From Butyrivibrio fibrisolvens (lineage in GTDB: Bacteria > Bacillota > Clostridia > Lachnospirales > Lachnospiraceae), in the NCBI RefSeq assembly GCF_023206215.1, contig NZ_CP065800.1, positions 3,038,001-3,102,000 of the forward strand: a stretch of DNA of 64,000 nucleotides, written 5' to 3'. The translations under genes were made by a program, and so were the position numbers. Position 1 is the first letter of the stretch. Each line of letters starts with the position of its first letter. Below, one piece after another: positions 13,103 to 38,144 of this stretch. The notes under the pieces were generated by a model. That model saw only the letters and a program-made list of their open reading frames with translations. It ran no database searches and was not told the DNA's origin.

Positions 13103-13163
13103 CTGATATTAATTCTTAAACTATTAAAATGCTTGTCAATAGGTACTGATGCCGATATAACAG

Positions 13164-13275
13164 CCTGTTCTTATCAGTCTATTATAATCAGCCTGTTATT
13201 ATAAGACTATTCTTATAAAACTATTCTTATCAGACCATTCTTATCAGACTATTTTTATCAGACTATTCTTATCAG
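13164..13275. repeat. 14-bp minisatellite, eight units, at the rel stop codon
   Basis: Eight head-to-tail 14-bp units, consensus ACTATTCTTATCAG on the plus strand, cover 112 bp. The array begins 11 bp after the rel stop codon, and the bases joining it resemble a decayed ninth unit. On the coding strand each full unit carries TGATAA. Individual units differ by one to four bases, so the array is not very recent. It separates rel from the MBL gene. Confidence 0.9.
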
Positions 13276-13285
13276 AATGTTTGTA

Positions 13286-15571
13286 TCAGCCTGTACTTCT
13301 CTCAATATCGATGACGCTATCGATCTGTCTTAGCTTATCTGTAACTGTTACAAGCTCTTCACGGCTTGAAACCTGGAATGAAACATCCATGGTAGCAAGG
13401 CCCTGCTTACTGGTTCTTGTATTAAGAGACAGGATGCTGATGTTGTTCTCAGTAAGAATTCTTGAAACATCTGCAAGAAGGCCTCGTCTGTCGTTAGCAA
13501 AGATCTTGATGTCAGCAGTATATTTCTCAGAGCCAATAATACCATCGCTCTCCCAGCGGGCTTCTATGAGCCTGCTCTTATCTTCCATAGTCATCTCTGC
13601 AACATTGACGCAGTCACGTCTATGAATAGATACGCCTCTGCCTCTTGTTACAAAGCCAACGATATCATCTCCCGGAACAGGATTACAACATCTTGAAAAT
13701 CTTACTGCAACGTCATGAACGCCTTTAACGATAATGGCATTACCACTTCCGTTGATCCTTGCAGGTGAGTTTGAAACATTAGCTGCTGCAAGAACTTCTT
13801 CATCAGTAAGATCCTTCTTGTGATCTCTCTCATAGAGCTCACAGAGCTTGTTGACAATACCGCCTTCTTTTAAGGCTCCAAGACCTACTGCACAAAGTAC
13901 AGCATCCCAGTCGTGGAAACCATACTTGCGGATGATGATATTGATATACTCAGTTTTGGTTATATCAGAGATCTCAATACCCTTGCTCTTACAATAGTCA
14001 GCGATAAGCTCTTTACCGTGGTTAACATTCTCTTCTTTTTGCTGAGACCTGAACCACTGGTTGATCTTGTTCTTGGTAGATGTGGACTTGGCAATTGCAA
14101 GCCAGTCACGTGATGGTCCCTTGGAATTCTGAGAAGTAAGGATCTCAATACGATCACCATTTTGGATCACATAATCAATAGGAACCAGCTTACCATTAAC
14201 CTTGGCACCGATCATCTTGTTACCAACAGCTGAATGAATGCTGTATGCAAAGTCGATTGGGGTAGATCCGTTCTGAAGATTCTTGACATCACCCTGAGGA
14301 GTGAAGCAATATACATCTTCTGAAAAAAGATTCAGATCGCTCTTTAAAAGGTTCATGAACTCTCTGTTGTCGCTCATGTCCCTCTGCCACTCAAGAATCT
14401 GGCGAAGCCATACCAGCTTCTCCTCTTCCTGAGTTTCAATCTTCTTGCCATCAGATGCTTCTTTATATTTCCAGTGAGCAGCAATACCGTATTCTGCTGC
14501 TCTGTGCATATCAAAAGTTCTGATCTGTATCTCGAATGGCGCACCGTTAGGTCCTATCAGTGTCGTATGAAGAGACTGATACATATTGACCTTGGGCATA
14601 GCTATATAGTCCTTGAACCTTCCGGGGATAGGCTTGTACATCTCATGGATTATACCAAGAGCTGCATAGCAGTCCTTGACTGATTCAACGATTATCCTGA
14701 CAGCGAACAGATCATAGATCTGATCAAGAGTCTTGCCCTGATTGTGCATCTTCTTGTAAATACTGAAGAAATGCTTAACTCTTCCGTTGACTTCACCCTT
14801 GATGCCGGCTTCTTTTATAGCAGCTTCAACATCTTTGGCAATCTTCTCAACGTAGGCTTCACGCTCTTCCTTTTTCTCAGATACCTTTTCCTTAAGATCC
14901 TTATAGATATCAGGTTTGAGGTACTTAAGAGACAGATCGTCAAGCTCTACCTTGATCTTACTGATACCAAGACGCCCTGCTATAGGAGAATAGATGTCCA
15001 GCGTCTCCTGAGCTATCCTGTGCTGCTTCTCAGGCGGCATATGAGCAAGTGTTCTCATATTGTGGAGTCTGTCGGCAAGCTTTATAAGGATGACACGGAT
15101 ATCCTTGGCCATAGCCAGGAACATCTTCCTGAGGTTCTCCGCCTGCATTTCAAGCTGCTCTGCAGTCTTGTCCTTATAGTCGGCAGGAAGCTGCAGACTC
15201 TGCAACTTGGTAACACCATCTACAAGAAGTGCTACATCAGATCCAAACTGCTCATCTATCTCGTCTTTGGTGAGAATAGTGTCTTCTACGACATCATGCA
15301 AAAGCCCTGCTGCAATAGTCTCCTTATCCAGCTCCAGATCTGCAAGGATAATGGACACACACAAAGGGTGAATAATATACGGCTCTCCGGATTTGCGAAG
15401 CTGATCTTTGTGAGCTTCGCGCGCTATATTATAAGCCTTCTCGATCATGGTGATATCATCAGATGGATGATACTTCTGTACCCTGGCGATCAGACCTTCA
15501 TAAAGCCTTTCCGGTGGCTGAAACTCTTCAATTGATTCAATTTTACCGTCATCAAATCTTTGTTCTAACAT
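13286..15571 (-). CDS. rel: Bifunctional (p)ppGpp synthetase/hydrolase Rel
   Basis: 761 residues, typical for long RelA/SpoT homologues. In order: HD hydrolase domain (HD at about 92-93 in LLHDVVED), synthetase domain (GRVKHFFSIYKKM at about 263-275 and GRFKDYIAMPKVNMYQSLHTT at about 317-337), TGS domain (from about 400), a zinc-finger/CC region with RCCNPVPGDDI, and a C-terminal ACT domain. The RFKD form of the RXKD loop is that of bifunctional Rel rather than RelA. It makes and degrades (p)ppGpp during starvation. Ribosome site AGAGGGAAA. Transcribed after apt, as in many Firmicutes. Confidence 0.96.
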   Translation of the reverse strand: MLEQRFDDGKIESIEEFQPPERLYEGLIARVQKYHPSDDITMIEKAYNIAREAHKDQLRKSGEPYIIHPLCVSIILADLELDKETIAAGLLHDVVEDTILTKDEIDEQFGSDVALLVDGVTKLQSLQLPADYKDKTAEQLEMQAENLRKMFLAMAKDIRVILIKLADRLHNMRTLAHMPPEKQHRIAQETLDIYSPIAGRLGISKIKVELDDLSLKYLKPDIYKDLKEKVSEKKEEREAYVEKIAKDVEAAIKEAGIKGEVNGRVKHFFSIYKKMHNQGKTLDQIYDLFAVRIIVESVKDCYAALGIIHEMYKPIPGRFKDYIAMPKVNMYQSLHTTLIGPNGAPFEIQIRTFDMHRAAEYGIAAHWKYKEASDGKKIETQEEEKLVWLRQILEWQRDMSDNREFMNLLKSDLNLFSEDVYCFTPQGDVKNLQNGSTPIDFAYSIHSAVGNKMIGAKVNGKLVPIDYVIQNGDRIEILTSQNSKGPSRDWLAIAKSTSTKNKINQWFRSQQKEENVNHGKELIADYCKSKGIEISDITKTEYINIIIRKYGFHDWDAVLCAVGLGALKEGGIVNKLCELYERDHKKDLTDEEVLAAANVSNSPARINGSGNAIIVKGVHDVAVRFSRCCNPVPGDDIVGFVTRGRGVSIHRRDCVNVAEMTMEDKSRLIEARWESDGIIGSEKYTADIKIFANDRRGLLADVSRILTENNISILSLNTRTSKQGLATMDVSFQVSSREELVTVTDKLRQIDSVIDIERSTG

Positions 15572-19089: not shown

Positions 19090-19175
19090 ATAATCCTTTG
19101 TTTATTCTTTTTTTATTTTTGACAGGCCTTGTTATTACAAAGCTTCGAGCTCTTTATTATCTGATTTACTTGCAG

Positions 19176-19235
19176 ACTTCCCACTTACCAGACAGACTCC
19201 TACCCTTGAATCTGCGTCTGGCTTTTGTGGGAAGT
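19176..19235 (-). terminator. Stop-proximal hairpin, ACTTCC/GGAAGT type
   Basis: ACTTCCCAC pairs with GTGGGAAGT, and CCAGAC pairs with GTCTGG inside. It lies 8 bp after the metallophosphoesterase stop. On the minus strand the 3' flank GGGAAGTCTG resembles hairpins at 26913, 30342, 35930 and 55904. It lacks a good T-run. Confidence 0.6.
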
Positions 19236-20764: not shown

Positions 20765-20967
20765 AAATACCTCCAAGTAATACAATTAGTATGCATAATA
20801 TCTCGCACTATCATTATATCATTATGATTAATTTACTTCATCCGGAAATAATTCTTAGATAAGTTAATTTCTATATACTGCTTGCCCTTGTAAAAGCTTT
20901 GAGGATGTTGGTCCGTCCAAGTGGGAAGTTTTAGTAATTATATATTTTTAGTCTGATCAGTATCGCC

Positions 20968-24503: not shown

Positions 24504-24786
24504 TCCACACCTCTACGTAGCAGCATTCTCAGAATCTTTGCAATGGCGGACTGTATATGAATCATTGCCACGCTTTTTAATTGTTTTATAAAATTCATGA
24601 GTATGATAGATTGAGTTTTTATTCTGCCCGGGGTTCACATGTCTGAGCGCAGCGAGTTTGAACCCCAGAATAAAAGACTCAAGATATCATGCCATGAATT
24701 TATAAAACAATTAACAGCATGGCAATGATTCATATACAGTCCGCCATTGCAAAGATTTTGAGAATGCCAATAAGCAGAGGTGTGGA
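24504..24786. repeat. Giant palindromic element, copy 1
   Basis: Arms of about 133 nt (24504-24636) and 127 nt (24660-24786) are almost fully complementary, enclosing a 23-nt loop ACATGTCTGAGCGCAGCGAG plus three T. Near the tip, GGGGTTC pairs with GAACCCC and a CCC bulge sits on the left arm. Further out, GGCGGACTGTATATGAATCA is repeated exactly on the other strand. It fills the gap between the convergent genes at 24136 and 24800. A homologous element is at 35930. No protein is encoded. RNA from either side would form one long hairpin. Confidence 0.95.
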
Positions 24787-26868: not shown

Positions 26869-26912
26869 GTGGTTTTATAATTTCAGTTTATTTCTAAAAA
26901 TATTATCTACTC

Positions 26913-26933
26913 AAACTTCCCGCTTGGAAGTTT
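26913..26933 (-). other. Stop-proximal hairpin, AAACTTCC/GGAAGTTT type
   Basis: Eight-bp perfect stem with a 5-nt loop, 14 bp after the symporter stop and upstream of the true terminator. Minus-strand flanks ATAACTG before and GAAGTTTGAGTA after match the hairpin at 30342. Confidence 0.6.
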
Positions 26934-26947
26934 CAGTTATTTTTTTT

Positions 26948-30112: not shown

Positions 30113-30341
30113 AGATAACCTCTCTTTATACCTGAAAACTCCATATAAAGTCTTAGTACCAAACTAAAGCAATGGCTTTAATACCACCTCTTTAAATTGA
30201 TATTGTAAACAAACATTCAGATATATGTATATCGGAGGATCGCACTAATTCCTGAATATTTCTTCTGGCTTTCTTTTGCCAGCTACTCTTTCCTCTCGAG
30301 TATTCACTGGCAGTTATCAGCAAATACATTTATATTGCTCA

Positions 30342-30391
30342 AACTTCGCATCTGCCAAACATACGCCACCCTCTGAGGCAGATGCGAAGTT
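30342..30391 (-). terminator. Stop-proximal hairpin, AACTTC/GAAGTT type
   Basis: Perfect 15-bp stem AACTTCGCATCTGCC/GGCAGATGCGAAGTT, 14 bp after the EamA gene stop. The minus-strand 3' flank is GAAGTTTGAGCAATATAA rather than a T-run. It probably ends or protects the transcript. Confidence 0.7.
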
Positions 30392-30405
30392 CCAGTTATA
30401 TTATT

Positions 30406-31589: not shown

Positions 31590-31643
31590 ATGCATTTCCA
31601 AGTCATATTACAGGATGTAATTCAGACTTTTCCGGAAATGCAT
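31590..31643. repeat. Branched inverted repeat after the flavodoxin gene
   Basis: ATGCATTTCC/GGAAATGCAT encloses AAGTC/GACTT and ATTACA/TGTAAT. The 20-bp GGATGCATTTCCAAGTCATA at 31588 recurs with one change at 31644, where it overlaps the flavodoxin stop codon, so the 3' end of the gene has been duplicated. Confidence 0.7.
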
Positions 31644-31658
31644 GGATGTATTTCCAAG

Positions 31659-32051
31659 TCATAGAACCCTCTTCGCAAACTCTTCTGCAGCTGCGATATT
31701 AGAATCAACAGCCTTACTCTTAAGGTAGAAGGTTTCAGATACTACCTCAATGCCCTTTTCCTTGAGCCCTTTTGCAATAAGATCAAGTGCATGCTTGGAA
31801 AGCCATGAAGTAGAGAATACAACTGCTCTTCCAATTTTAGATGCATCGATACCTGCAATGTATTCTTTTAATACATTGTCAATTCCATACGCATATAAAG
31901 CGCCGCCTATAAATAATGTATCAACTCTTTCAGTGATCTTAGCACCTTCCTGATCAACAGATATAGCATCAACTCCTGCAACTCTAGCAAAAGCCTCAGC
32001 CACTTTCTTTGTATTTCCTGATTTTGATAAATATCGAACTGCTACTGACAT
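31659..32051 (-). CDS. Flavodoxin-like protein
   Basis: 130 residues from the ATG with GGAGG seven bases upstream. The FMN phosphate loop SKSGNTKKVAEAFA is at about 9-22 (YLSKSGNTKK), GGALYAYG is the second flavin-binding segment and VVFSTSW lies in the third. Length and motifs suit a short flavodoxin that carries electrons or acts as a small FMN-dependent reductase; partner unknown. It has its own transcript end at 31479. Confidence 0.83.
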   Translation of the reverse strand: MSVAVRYLSKSGNTKKVAEAFARVAGVDAISVDQEGAKITERVDTLFIGGALYAYGIDNVLKEYIAGIDASKIGRAVVFSTSWLSKHALDLIAKGLKEKGIEVVSETFYLKSKAVDSNIAAAEEFAKRVL

Positions 32052-34485: not shown

Positions 34486-35844
34486 TGCTTCCATAACCTC
34501 GGGATATGCAAGTGTACCGTCGTCACGGTTTATGAAACCAAAAAGTTCTCCGTTACCTGCAAATGCACCATTGTCCCAGATTGTAACAGTAAGGCCGCAA
34601 GATCTTGCCTTAGCTGTATAATATGCTGCCCAGTCAACTCTGTCCTGAAGATTACCATTCTTATCAACTGCTCCGCACTCTCCGATAAGAACAGGGATAC
34701 CCTGACTTATATACTTTGAGTATATTTTATCCATAAAATAGTCAATATCTTTTCTGCTATCGTATGAGCTTGCATCAAAATTATCAATACCGGGGCTTTC
34801 AAGAGCAAAGCTATATGGTGTATATGCATGGATAGATAAGATTATCTTATTATCCGCACTGTCAGTAGGAATCACAAATCCATCATTAAGAACTCCGTCA
34901 GGACTTGCGCAGTATCCGGGGCACATAAGATAGCGGTTTTCGTTATTACTGCCGGATGCTCTTACAACATCTACAAACTTCTGATTAAGTTCATTGATTA
35001 TGGCAATAGCCTCTTTACAGTCTTCGTTATTTGGATCGATCCACCATTCATTAGTGTGACCTACAAGTCTGGGCTCATTAAGAGCTTCAAATACAAGCTT
35101 ATCATCATAATCCTTGAATCTGTCAGCAACCTGTGTCCAGATAGACTCTACATACTTAAGAGACTGCTCTTTATGATCCTCGTCAGGATAGAAGCCATTT
35201 GCTTCAAGGTGATTATCATGATGTATATTGATAATAACATACATATCTTCTTCTATTGCATAGTCTACAACTTCCTGAACGCGGTCAAGCCATGCCTCAT
35301 TGATCTGAAGATTTTCATCAACATGATTGTGCCAGCTTATAGGAATCCTTACAGTATTAAAACCATTATCATGTATAGCTTTTATATAATCTTTAGTAAC
35401 TTTGTCATTGCCCCAGGCTGTCTCTATAGTAAGGTCATCTTTGACACCATTGTCAACAAAAGCATCAAAAGTATTTCCAATATTGTATCCAAGCTTCATA
35501 TTCTGAACGAACTTAAGACCATCATTATCAGGAATATCTTTTTGAGCTATATCTAATTCCGGAATTTCAATCTCAGTAGCCATCTCTTGGGCCTCCTTAT
35601 CTGAATCTAAAGTACTTGCATCTGCATTAGTATCACCTGTCAAGCTCTCGCTAGTATCGTCAGTACTGCCGGTATTATTATCAGCACTATCGCCAGTTTC
35701 TGATGCATCTGCACTTGCACTGTCATTAGTAACTGCTCCACTAGCAGCTTTATCATCCACTGATCCATTACCATTATCATTCCCTGATACGCCGCACCCA
35801 ACAAGTAATAGTGCCAGCAATACGCTAACTACCTTCTTTTTCAT
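34465..35844 (-). CDS. Secreted GH5 endoglucanase-type lipoprotein
   Basis: 459 residues. The signal peptide ends in the lipobox LLVGC (Cys17), so the enzyme is membrane-anchored outside. A low-complexity Ser/Thr/Asp/Gly linker of about 75 residues follows. The catalytic domain starts at about 110 with MKLGYNIGNTFDA, contains ETAWGN and RIPISWHNH, and has the acid/base Glu257 in FEALNEP and the nucleophile Glu389 in VLIGECG. This layout fits GH5 subfamily 4 (endo-beta-1,4-glucanase, xyloglucanase or related); the exact substrate is uncertain. It has its own promoter region beyond the giant palindrome and its own terminator. Confidence 0.93.
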   Translation of the reverse strand: MKKKVVSVLLALLLVGCGVSGNDNGNGSVDDKAASGAVTNDSASADASETGDSADNNTGSTDDTSESLTGDTNADASTLDSDKEAQEMATEIEIPELDIAQKDIPDNDGLKFVQNMKLGYNIGNTFDAFVDNGVKDDLTIETAWGNDKVTKDYIKAIHDNGFNTVRIPISWHNHVDENLQINEAWLDRVQEVVDYAIEEDMYVIINIHHDNHLEANGFYPDEDHKEQSLKYVESIWTQVADRFKDYDDKLVFEALNEPRLVGHTNEWWIDPNNEDCKEAIAIINELNQKFVDVVRASGSNNENRYLMCPGYCASPDGVLNDGFVIPTDSADNKIILSIHAYTPYSFALESPGIDNFDASSYDSRKDIDYFMDKIYSKYISQGIPVLIGECGAVDKNGNLQDRVDWAAYYTAKARSCGLTVTIWDNGAFAGNGELFGFINRDDGTLAYPEVMEAMLKYCE

Positions 35845-35929
35845 ATAATCTCCTTGAGCAATATACTATCTATATCATTTTACTTATAAATCTATATTAC
35901 TAATATATCTATCTGCATTATTTATACTC

Positions 35930-36219
35930 AAACTTCCAACTTGGGCGGCGCCGTGTCTGAGAAGGTTTTGCATGGGCAGACAGAATATGAATCTTTGCTA
36001 CGTTTTTTAATTGTTTTATAAAATTCATGAGCATGATAGATGAATTTTTTATTCTGCCCGGGGTCCACATGTTTGAGCGAAGCGAGTTTGGACCCCAGAA
36101 TAAAAGAATTCATCTATCATGCCATGAATTATAAAACAATTAACAACGTGGCAAAGATTCATATTCTGTCTGCCCATGCAAGATCTTCTCAGACACAGCG
36201 CCGCCCAAGTTGGAAGTTT
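35930..36219. repeat. Giant palindromic element, copy 2
   Basis: Arms 35930-36066 and 36090-36219 are nearly complementary over about 130 nt and enclose a 23-nt loop that differs from copy 1 by two bases. The inner ~160 bp matches copy 1 at 24566-24724 closely. The outer arms are homologous but diverged, with paired changes: tip GGGGTCC/GGACCCC here against GGGGTTC/GAACCCC there, and TGAATT/AATTCA against TTGAGT/ACTCAA. The outermost bases are AAACTTCCAACTTGG/CCAAGTTGGAAGTTT, the stop-proximal hairpin signature. It fills the gap between the binding-protein terminator and the GH5 gene. Confidence 0.95.
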
Positions 36220-36256
36220 AGACATAAAACCTATAAAATACATCATATCCATTTTC

Positions 36257-36372: not shown

Positions 36373-37854
36373 TTATTTGTTAGCTTCGTCGATATAAGCC
36401 TTCCATGTATCAGCAATTGCTTCTGTAAGAGCTGCAACGTCTGCGTTAGGTCCGATGCTCCATACAAGCTCCTCACCAAGCTTAAGGTTAGGAATCATGT
36501 CGTGGTAAGCAACTGTACCGTGCTCAGGCTCAGACATCATTGTGATTGTCTCTGTTACTGCTCTTTCATCGAATACACCCTGACGAGCTGTTGAAAGGAA
36601 TCCGTTGTAATCTTCGTATCCTTCAGGAGCTTCTGTGTAGAGGTTGTAAGCGAATGCGATCTTCCAAGCTCTGTCTGCATCATAGCATCCAGGAATAGCT
36701 GCTGGGTTGTTGCTCCATACGTTTACATAAGTGTCCATCTTAGGTCCCTTAGGGAACATTACGAAACCAACTTCATCTTCCATATCAGCAAGGAATGCAC
36801 CAGGTCCGCCAGCATACTCATCTTCTACCATGAATGCAGCGTGTCCCTGAACGAACTCTTCCTTGTAGTAATCCCATTCAGCACCTTCTGGATCGTGGTT
36901 GTCGAACTTGTTATACATATCTACGCACCACTCAAGAGCTTCCTGAGTCTCAGGAGCTTCAAGGTTGTATACATACTTACCGTCAGCATCCTTAGCTACA
37001 TAAGATCCGCCGTTAGAGAATACAGCTTCAGTTGTCATAACACCTTCGTTAAGTGTAAGACCATATACATCATTGACACCATCGTTATCTGTATCTCTCT
37101 GACACTTAGCCATAAGCTCTTCGAACTTATCCCATGTCCATGTGCCATCTGCCTGCATATCATAGATGCTTTCAGGATCGATACCTGCTTCTGTAAGAAG
37201 TCTCTTGTTGAAGTAAACACCTGTACGAGGCTCAGCGATACCAGCTGACATAGCATAGATGGAATCGCCCTTAGAATACTGCTCGTGGATAAGGTTTGAT
37301 GTGAACTTATCCTGTGTGAAGTCAAGGCAGTCAAGAGTTGCAAGGTCATACATAAGACCATTGTTCATAGCTGAAACGATAGCTGCATCACCTCTTAAGA
37401 TGAATACATAGTTATTATCGTCGCCGCCTGTTGTAACATAGTCTACGAAATCCTGAGGTGTTGTTCCCCAATCGGAAATAGCAACCTGCTTAATCTTGAA
37501 GTTGTATGTCTCCTGGATCCACTCACGATACTCGTCAAGAGATTCCTCATAGTCGTTTGAAGGCTCAGCCGGCTCTTCAGGAGACCACCAGTCACGAACT
37601 ATGATTTCCATTCCGCCAAGATCGATAGGATTACCATTCTCATCTGTGATAATCTTTGGACCCTCTTCCTCAGCTTCTGTAGCTTCATTTGATGCCTGAT
37701 CTGTTGTGCCTTCATTAGCTGTTGAATCAGTAGCTGAATCTCCCTGATTTCCAGCATTACCTGCATCACCTGAACCGCCACAAGCAACAAGACCTGCTGA
37801 CATAGCTGTGATTGTTGCTACAGCAATTGCTTTGTTTGCTAACTGCTTTTTCAT
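36373..37854 (-). CDS. Carbohydrate ABC transporter substrate-binding lipoprotein
   Basis: 493 residues. Lipoprotein signal ending in LVAC (Cys at about 25) and an acidic linker, then a family-1-type sugar-binding protein: EEFVQGHAAFMVEDEYAGGPGAF and the WTWDKFEELMAKCQRD stretch typical of oligosaccharide binders. It would hand xylo-oligosaccharides or related sugars to the two permeases encoded just upstream (38146-40051). A separate -10-like TATACT and a TTATCGATAA palindrome lie before the start, and two hairpin repeats separate it from the permease gene, so its level may exceed that of the permeases. Ribosome site GAAGGAGG. Confidence 0.92.
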   Translation of the reverse strand: MKKQLANKAIAVATITAMSAGLVACGGSGDAGNAGNQGDSATDSTANEGTTDQASNEATEAEEEGPKIITDENGNPIDLGGMEIIVRDWWSPEEPAEPSNDYEESLDEYREWIQETYNFKIKQVAISDWGTTPQDFVDYVTTGGDDNNYVFILRGDAAIVSAMNNGLMYDLATLDCLDFTQDKFTSNLIHEQYSKGDSIYAMSAGIAEPRTGVYFNKRLLTEAGIDPESIYDMQADGTWTWDKFEELMAKCQRDTDNDGVNDVYGLTLNEGVMTTEAVFSNGGSYVAKDADGKYVYNLEAPETQEALEWCVDMYNKFDNHDPEGAEWDYYKEEFVQGHAAFMVEDEYAGGPGAFLADMEDEVGFVMFPKGPKMDTYVNVWSNNPAAIPGCYDADRAWKIAFAYNLYTEAPEGYEDYNGFLSTARQGVFDERAVTETITMMSEPEHGTVAYHDMIPNLKLGEELVWSIGPNADVAALTEAIADTWKAYIDEANK

Positions 37855-38037: not shown

Positions 38038-38144
38038 GGACTGTTTACAGTTCAGGAGTTAAAATTGCCAAAGGCAATTCTAACATCCCACGGATTGTTT
38101 ACAATCCAGGAATTAAAATTGCCAAAGGCAATTTTAATCTCCCA
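38038..38144. repeat. Two tandem 53-bp hairpin units
   Basis: Units 38038-38091 and 38092-38144 each contain the short inverted repeat TGTTTACA and the stem AAATTGCC-AAA-GGCAATT. The second unit ends 1 bp from the permease stop codon. They lie between permease and binding-protein genes, where RNA stems often set unequal expression. Confidence 0.88.

Follow-up and report, generated by a model that had tools for sequence, protein, structure and literature searches.

Long palindromic MITE-like elements of Butyrivibrio: arms probably copied onto each other in place and a probably selected fold near the tip

Several families of bacterial MITEs have been reviewed, including Correia/NEMIS, ERIC, RUP, RPE and YPAL, as named in the sections of the review used here (PMC2229807). 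Inverted repeats are also known as sites of a particular kind of mutation. Template switching homogenises inverted-repeat arms and inverts spacers, which are its two described outcomes in the part of the study cited here (PMC8604942), and the footprint of compensatory change together with loop inversion is said, in the passages we draw on, to support the template-switch model most strongly (PMC8794818); quasipalindrome mutation in Escherichia coli is a related template-switch case, to go by the portion cited (PMC7202029). Long palindromes are also targets of cleavage, and the E. coli SbcCD enzyme is described in the cited sections as cutting the hairpin of a 246-bp interrupted palindrome in every replication cycle (PMC3315005). 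Paired change on the two sides of a stem is the standard evidence for a selected RNA fold.

We analysed a stretch of 64,000 nucleotides from Butyrivibrio fibrisolvens (the window), whose own genome of 4.45 Mb consists of two contigs (C1 and C2) and is denoted G000; G061 and G102 denote two genomes of the same genus. The initial annotation of the window had described a giant palindrome with arms that diverged from those of another copy while changing in pairs. This description holds: positions 35930-36219 form a near-perfect palindrome of 290 bp (copy 2) with arms of approximately 130-150 bp around a conserved tip, in which we counted 126 Watson-Crick, 3 GU, 1 AC and 2 other pairs. Its minimum free energy, calculated with RNA parameters, is -211.6 kcal/mol against a shuffle mean of -68.8 (z -32.5), and that of copy 1, with the same kind of parameters, is -175 (z -20.4); in both cases none of 100 shuffled sequences was as good. 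Inverted-repeat detection placed the arms at 35921-36016/36133-36228 in copy 2 and at 24504-24586/24704-24786 in copy 1. The exact ends of copy 2 in Table 1 are inferred from comparison with the rest of the family.

Table 1. Positions of the palindromic element and of other pieces of its family within the window.
Feature	Positions	Strand	Remarks
Copy 2, whole element	35927..36221	+	Termini of family type CTCAAACTTC ... GAAGTTTAG; "+" is the strand with the tip reading GTTTGAGCGAAGCGAGTTT
Copy 2, left arm	35930..36066	+	Base-pair count over 35930-36219
Copy 2, right arm	36090..36219	+	Base-pair count over 35930-36219
Conserved tip GTTTGAGCGAAGCGAGTTT, GCGNAGC at centre	36071..36089	+	Motif search of own genome
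GATAGATG, left half of tandem G.A site	36035..36042	+	Fully paired in copy 2
CATCTATC, right half of tandem G.A site	36111..36118	+	Reverse complement of left half in copy 2
Copy 1 of element	24504..24786	+ (same tip strand)	Tip at 24641-24659
Internally deleted family mini-palindrome	30338..30395	.	Flanks TTATATTG/TTATATTA; read by eye
Solo right arm end of family	20850..20933	+	
Very short end-to-end family remnant	26909..26937	.	
Short family remnant, both ends present	19170..19216	.	

When copies 1 and 2 are compared over 123 aligned pairs, 93 pairs are identical, 15 differ on both sides and remain Watson-Crick, one differs on both sides and ends as GU, and 14 differ on one side. The examples of paired change given in the initial annotation are accurate: the tip stem is GGGGTTC/GAACCCC in copy 1 and GGGGTCC/GGACCCC in copy 2, TTGAGT/ACTCAA corresponds to TGAATT/AATTCA, and the tip has the same orientation in the two copies. 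The outer arms have indeed drifted a great deal yet remain complementary, and by eye they can still be aligned across the whole family; a reading of them as unrelated between subfamilies was rejected on the strength of the alignment. Copy 2 lies between two minus-strand ORFs, one that ends at 36373 and has a terminator-like hairpin after it, the other with its start at 35844. We looked for a recognisable target duplication at its ends (35927-36221) and found none. The corresponding gap holds no element in G102 (L206) and a hairpin of a different subfamily in G061 (L205), and the intergenic DNA of this locus is too diverged in the two genomes for an exact definition of the empty site.

The window contains other repeats as well. 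A relative of the small repeat TTACAGGATGTAA... stands alone at 31604-31666, and this small repeat is nested at a similar right-arm position in several copies of the palindrome elsewhere (G000:C1:376504, L038; 2919188, L082; G061_1550996, L155). Two units of 53 bp, spaced by 54 bp and 87% alike, each with a short hairpin, are found at 38038-38144, and a tandem repeat with a period of 14 (eight overlapping 42-nt copies) at 13162-13301.

The initial annotation implied two copies; the own genome in fact contains about 90 long copies of approximately 290 bp and many shortened ones. A search for the tip motif CACATGTYTGAGCGNAGCGAGTTTG with up to three mismatches returned 86 matches, against 46 for the reversed-pattern control, a high value that we take to be an effect of the near mirror symmetry of the motif. 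The stretches around the motif hits hold 92 tip matches, which reduce to 88 distinct long copies after removal of two chance matches (C1:993339 and 3153197), one duplicate (4112481 is the same as 7668, by overlap of contig ends) and a half copy (C2:232065); long copies with an altered tip (for example near 2501089 and 1577385, and at C1:505279) and C1:3223611 lie outside the 88. Eleven copies, termed subfamily A, are nearly identical and stand at unrelated places. With a shorter tip motif and at most one mismatch, five of the 79 genomes of the genus gave matches: 93 in G000 (one of them counted twice at the contig-end overlap), 83 in G061, 11 in G102, two in G034 and one in G023; the remaining 74 gave none. 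In G061 and G102 the fetched copies have stems of the family type, and those of G034 are unrelated; by tip and stem together the family is present in two of the 78 other congeneric genomes, G061 and G102, and for two of the three carrier species the genome contains about 90 sites.

The element carries no gene and has the ends CTNAAACTTC...GAAGTTTNAG. The end motif, with up to two mismatches, occurs 155 times in the own genome and the reversed control not at all; many of the additional ends belong to mini-palindromes of about 25-180 bp that arose by internal deletion, or stand as solo ends. Both ends are recognisable in 43 of 148 long copies. The search for target duplications that had been proposed with the initial annotation succeeded at the level of the family: exact direct repeats of at least 7 bp flank 20 of these 43 copies, compared with a mean of 0.74 and a maximum of 3 in 300 sets of shuffled flanks, and 11 of the 20 repeats sit three bases beyond both AAACTTC and GAAGTTT. 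The copies are almost always intergenic: a large ORF overlap occurs in a single one of 149 contexts. Short, repeated, devoid of a transposase gene, bounded by terminal inverted repeats and associated with target-site duplications, the family is a mobile, gene-free, MITE-like element. A search of phage sequences for the element gave no match, a search of plasmid sequences gave one record, from B. fibrisolvens, and a DNA search of 60 relatives, a set that excludes G061 and G102, gave only short fragments, in three of them.

The copies also show some further arrangements. All ten close pairs (less than 1.1 kb) among the 88 scored copies have their tips pointing outward, minus then plus; they lie on G000:C1 near 1106778 (L052), 1965446 (L063), 2207133 (L066), 2242770 (L068), 2262553 (L069), 2420472 (L073), 2456433 (L074), 2860930 (L080), 2899288 (L081) and 3151534 (L086), and two of the ten appear to hold an ORF between the copies. 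The tip TYTGAGCGNAGCGAGTT is also found on long hairpins with unrelated stems in Luteimonas marina (L144/L259, two copies), in G034 (L258/L261, two copies) and in an IMG/VR contig (L237/L260). A variant tip, in which CCCCGCG replaces the usual bases before AAGCGAG, recurs in copies from G061, G102 and G000 (L224, L226, L230, L231 and L130, the last being G000:C1:505279).

In order to identify an enzyme that could mobilise the element, we examined 20 PF01609 transposase matches in G000 and G061, none of which lies between matching element ends; the near matches L251 and L253, two records of a single locus, correspond to a mini-hairpin and to a duplicated part of that mini-hairpin. An autonomous partner was also sought among the end matches listed for the own genome (the first 100 of the 155), and those that were fetched proved to be hairpins, deletion derivatives and solo ends. 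A transposase of 574 aa at C1:2907-3767 (L251 1178-3128), which we take to be IS1634-like, stands within direct repeats of about 200 bp that hold the mini-hairpin piece, one of which has lost part of the mini-hairpin end; there are no matching ends around this transposase, and we read it as a later insertion and rejected it as the partner. Both genomes encode an SbcD homologue with a score above the cut-off of its family.

We examined paired change across the family in a set of 148 copies (88 from the own genome, 50 from G061 and 10 from G102), of which four with nested inserts or a missing arm were removed, leaving 144. G061 has about 83 tips, and 15 of its copies beyond these 50 enter only the ortholog, inversion and G.A-site comparisons. 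The consensus stem was scored over 90 pairs, with the outermost arm ends lying outside them, and comprises 11,872 Watson-Crick, 559 GU, 140 AC and 351 other cells; alignment columns 31-39, in the outer arms, contain many mismatched cells and may be partly misaligned. Events were counted on a FastTree tree with parsimony ancestors, from Watson-Crick parents only, which gave 582 two-sided changes from one Watson-Crick pair to another, 54 two-sided changes ending in a non-Watson-Crick state and 480 one-sided changes; for a tree of recombining elements parsimony is approximate and events are not fully independent, and the p values given below are guides. At least one two-sided change was found in 80 of the 90 pairs. 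In the null model, each substitution was moved, on its own branch, to a random column carrying the same base (200 replicates), and the total fell to about 38; shifting the partner by 1-8 columns gave 5-36. Because the alignment used for scoring also served to predict the structure, the comparison is biased in its favour, though by less than the margin observed. The excess is present at every branch length: 11 two-sided changes against 0.57 below 0.01 (maximum 3 in 200 replicates, with 36 one-sided changes on the same branches), 45 against 1.57 at 0.01-0.02, 194 against 10.5 at 0.02-0.08 and 332 against 25.8 above 0.08. Covariation is far above this tree-preserving null, a result obtained from aligned genomic copies in place of the R-scape analysis that had been suggested. 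Neighbouring two-sided changes number 11 against a null mean of 5.0 and a maximum of 12, too weak a clustering to be claimed as a sign of long patches.

The initial annotation left two explanations for such paired change, a selected fold or correction of one arm against the other, and both are supported, in different parts of the element. The combination that we consider likely is as follows. The family is a non-autonomous, gene-free palindromic element of about 290 bp whose copies were inserted with a direct repeat of about 8-9 bp, as the flanking repeats show statistically, and after insertion the arms would keep being copied onto each other in place. The copying would most simply be DNA polymerase template switching at a hairpin or cruciform during replication, with recombination between the arms as a close alternative for the reaction. 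A single such step would make paired changes, transversions included, and the outer arms would thereby drift in sequence without losing their complementarity. In addition, the 40 pairs that lie no more than about 55 nt from the tip would be selected as a folded single strand of one polarity, either RNA or single-stranded DNA, with folding probably needed for propagation.

Evidence for copying in place comes from related species rather than strains. Ten sites with both flanks in two genomes (seven plus three, one being the window locus) were identified, and two sites with one flank were left out of the counts. At three of the ten (C1_549782, C1_3433472 and window copy 2) the elements are too different to be paired, one has an inverted core, one (G061_1901046/G102_2321115) was viewed and not counted, and five were scored pair by pair. 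G061_1581034/G102_1951041 shows two two-sided and six one-sided changes, G061_1871078/G102_1991064 two and one, and G061_1801027/G102_1941080 none and seven. Over the 344 scored pairs of these three comparisons, 14 one-sided changes lead one to expect about 0.05 chance compensations, and four were seen, three of them transversions; two-sided changes at a fixed locus are thus found in two of the comparisons and are absent from 1801027/1941080. A one-step origin of each is what we infer. At C1_584916/G061_1461057 there are six two-sided and 17 one-sided changes, as well as three two-sided changes involving other states, and this is weaker evidence because the outer arms are not each other's nearest relatives. 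C1_560013/G061_1481012, with 11 two-sided changes, six one-sided and one two-sided to a mismatch, was set aside because its core has been swapped.

The comparison of C1_1124516 with G061_1891010 revealed an inversion in place. The unique flanks and outer arms are colinear and keep their side-specific differences, and the core of more than 100 bp is reversed between them: it matches at 110 of 115 positions in tip orientation versus 87 of 108 aligned in flank orientation. On the right side, arm plus flank match at 94 of 95 positions when colinear versus 55 of 60 to the other arm; the left side has 83 of 90 versus 75 of 84. Core 20-mers from -70 to +38 have 17-20 matches inverted and 10-17 direct, and outer-flank 20-mers have 16-20 direct and 10-14 inverted. 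This is an inversion of the spacer between unchanged arms, seen at one of the ten sites with two flanks. A further argument for arm correction comes from a single case read by eye: the left end of the mini-palindrome at 30338-30395 reads CGCATCTGCC where the family has CGCACTTGCC, with two adjacent bases changed, and this altered end matches the deletion-junction sequence of its own right end. Taken together, the observations support the conclusion that arms are templated on each other in place, and the cross-species comparison supports the arm correction that the initial annotation had named as one of its two explanations.

Arm conversion and core inversion would also be the products of reciprocal recombination between the arms, or of cleavage of a cruciform or hairpin followed by repair. 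The machinery for cleavage may be present, given SbcD in both genomes, and processing of the palindromes is evident from the many mini-palindromes with internal deletions. Single isolated pair changes nevertheless fit short template switches more simply, and with nothing decisive against it we regard this variant of the copying step as possible, if on the unlikely side.

Paired differences could alternatively be imported, if cores or arms were replaced from other copies by ectopic gene conversion. At C1_560013/G061_1481012 the two elements share the site and the outer arms (distance 0.038) and differ in their cores (0.211), each core being closer to other copies; since site and outer arms are shared and the core is not, cores seem to move between copies as well. 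The outer arms of 584916/1461057 likewise look replaced, and import from other copies is possible at both sites. Across the family, comparison of the three nearest copies by core with the three nearest by outer arms gave at least one copy in common in only 81 of 144 cases and none in the other 63. However, inversion of a core between its own arms is beyond conversion between copies alone, which also does not simply explain isolated two-sided changes with the sequence between them untouched (1871078/1991064, 1581034/1951041 and subfamily A). The 11 copies of subfamily A contain nine two-sided Watson-Crick cells and 35 one-sided cells (seven and 30 without the terminal column), and the seven copies of subfamily A2 contain 14 two-sided Watson-Crick cells, along with 30 one-sided changes to GU, AC or a mismatch and five to Watson-Crick. 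As the general source of the paired change, ectopic conversion is improbable.

The possibility that selection alone is at work, with each copy or a set of master copies being a functional structured RNA in which a second mutation compensates the first, must be weighed against the same data. The massive covariation, the intergenic position of nearly all copies and the features near the tip described below all agree with it. It does not account well for the two-sided changes on the shortest branches, nor for the two-sided transversions at fixed orthologous sites. Transversions make up 275 of the 582 two-sided changes (47%), compared with 185 of 480 one-sided changes (39%); two-sided events are therefore not enriched for steps through GU, which would give the opposite. 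Together with the inverted core, these short-branch events, transversions and fixed-site changes are the reasons why we favour arm correction over selection alone, which we judge quite improbable. No clear orientation preference relative to genes was found among 149 contexts (39 sense/sense, 51 antisense/antisense, 33 convergent, 23 divergent and three with one side unknown), which also speaks against it, and a terminator or leader role was rejected for this reason.

One-sided changes separate the parts of the element. A change to GU keeps a wobble on the tip strand, and a change to AC allows a wobble only on the other strand, a distinction to which correction should be blind, so that an asymmetry near the tip points to selection. 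For the 40 inner pairs the GU:AC ratio is 106:11; the 31 middle pairs have 47:21 and the 19 outer pairs 62:48. Among the inner pairs GU exceeds AC in 24 columns and falls below it in one, and the ratio is still 71:11 without the three tip columns. The outer arms have no significant bias (p 0.21), a further point against selection alone, and the contrast between inner and outer pairs is strong (p 3e-9). A count made copy by copy in the 88 copies, without a joint alignment, gave 119:19 up to 75 nt from the tip and 129:94 beyond. Of the features expected of a structured RNA, covariation above the null is thus accompanied by one-strand wobble near the tip and not in the outer arms.

Additional conserved features lie in the same region. 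Of 162 placed copies, 83 retain a tandem G.A mismatch as exactly GATAGATG/CAGATATC, which counts against unchecked correction because correction would erase the mismatch; the site is fully paired in 14 copies, window copy 2 among them, in forms copied from either side, and one-step intermediates exist among the copies. The GCGNAGC at the centre of the tip is presumably an unusually stable DNA mini-hairpin. The wobble asymmetry, together with the conservation of both the mismatches and the tip, makes it probable that the 40 pairs closest to the tip are selected as a folded single strand, in agreement with the earlier suggestion of a selected fold. Across the whole window Rfam gave no match at the gathering score; with E up to 10 there were seven matches, the best three being microRNA-type long hairpins far below the cut-offs that look like artefacts of long hairpins.

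That the arms are two independent insertions forming an inverted pair of short elements is extremely improbable, as nothing was found in its support, the family has one tip and one pair of ends, and the target repeats lie outside the whole palindrome in the 20 copies noted above; neither this outcome nor a lack of covariation over many copies, the two findings that would have spoken against the original proposal, was seen. Several facts do weigh against the combined explanation of a mobile palindrome with in-place arm copying and a selected tip fold: one of the four ortholog pairs used (1801027/1941080) has no two-sided change, there is no autonomous partner among the PF01609 matches, the core inversion is a single case, and 54 two-sided events end in non-Watson-Crick states.

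A more speculative extension, which we consider rather unlikely, is movement of the element in the form of a folded single strand, either RNA or single-stranded DNA, that has a fixed polarity and is recognised at the tip and the G.A site; the outer arms would then need no selection, being rebuilt by arm-to-arm copying. If so, the shape of this mobile hairpin would be passed on through templating and not through its sequence, and the tip on unrelated stems in other bacteria would be a portable recognition site of a wider class.

A mutational process is the best explanation for much of the paired change, namely that in outer arms with no clear strand polarity, and covariation tests applied to repeated palindromes can therefore indicate a structure where no selection acts. 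With its many sites per genome, several of them orthologous, the family constitutes a natural assay in which the copying of arms, the inversion and exchange of cores and the deletion of palindromes are recorded on an evolutionary time scale. A further question is how dozens of 290-bp palindromes persist in a cell that encodes an SbcD homologue. Among the open-licence papers listed for Butyrivibrio palindromic repeats and miniature inverted elements we found none on this family. Arm homogenisation is itself a known mechanism; new, as far as we have searched, is its operation in a mobile element that is present in many copies and has arms of 140 bp and an inverted core of more than 100 bp.

As far as the cited sections of the review describe them, bacterial MITEs resemble the Butyrivibrio element in being small, gene-free, mostly intergenic and repeated, with terminal inverted repeats, target duplications and a long stem-loop when folded (PMC2229807). 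The reviewed MITEs are about 100-200 bp long and have a terminal TA, whereas this element is about 290 bp long, ends in CTNAAACTTC, is nearly all inverted repeat and has a target repeat of about 8-9 bp; unlike them, as characterised there, it has no partner transposase that we could find (PF01609) and its arms change together in place (PMC2229807). With Rfam structured RNAs it shares covariation, a wobble bias near the tip, a conserved loop and tandem G.A pairs, and it differs from them in lacking a match at the gathering score, in being mobile and in showing outer-arm covariation without strand polarity. Engineered long palindromes of E. coli are of comparable size (246 bp) and form hairpins, according to the part of that study cited; here, in contrast, dozens of natural copies coexist with an encoded SbcD homologue (PMC3315005). 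There is also a likeness to template-switch mutation at inverted repeats, with which the element shares arm homogenisation, one-step compensatory changes and spacer inversion, as those processes are presented in the cited portions (PMC8794818, PMC8604942). The published cases, in the same portions, have arms of 7-16 bp (the yeast study) or are rRNA hairpins with inverted loops of about 4-8 nt (PMC8794818, PMC8604942), compared with arms of about 140 bp, an inverted core of more than 100 bp and about 90 recording copies per genome in Butyrivibrio.
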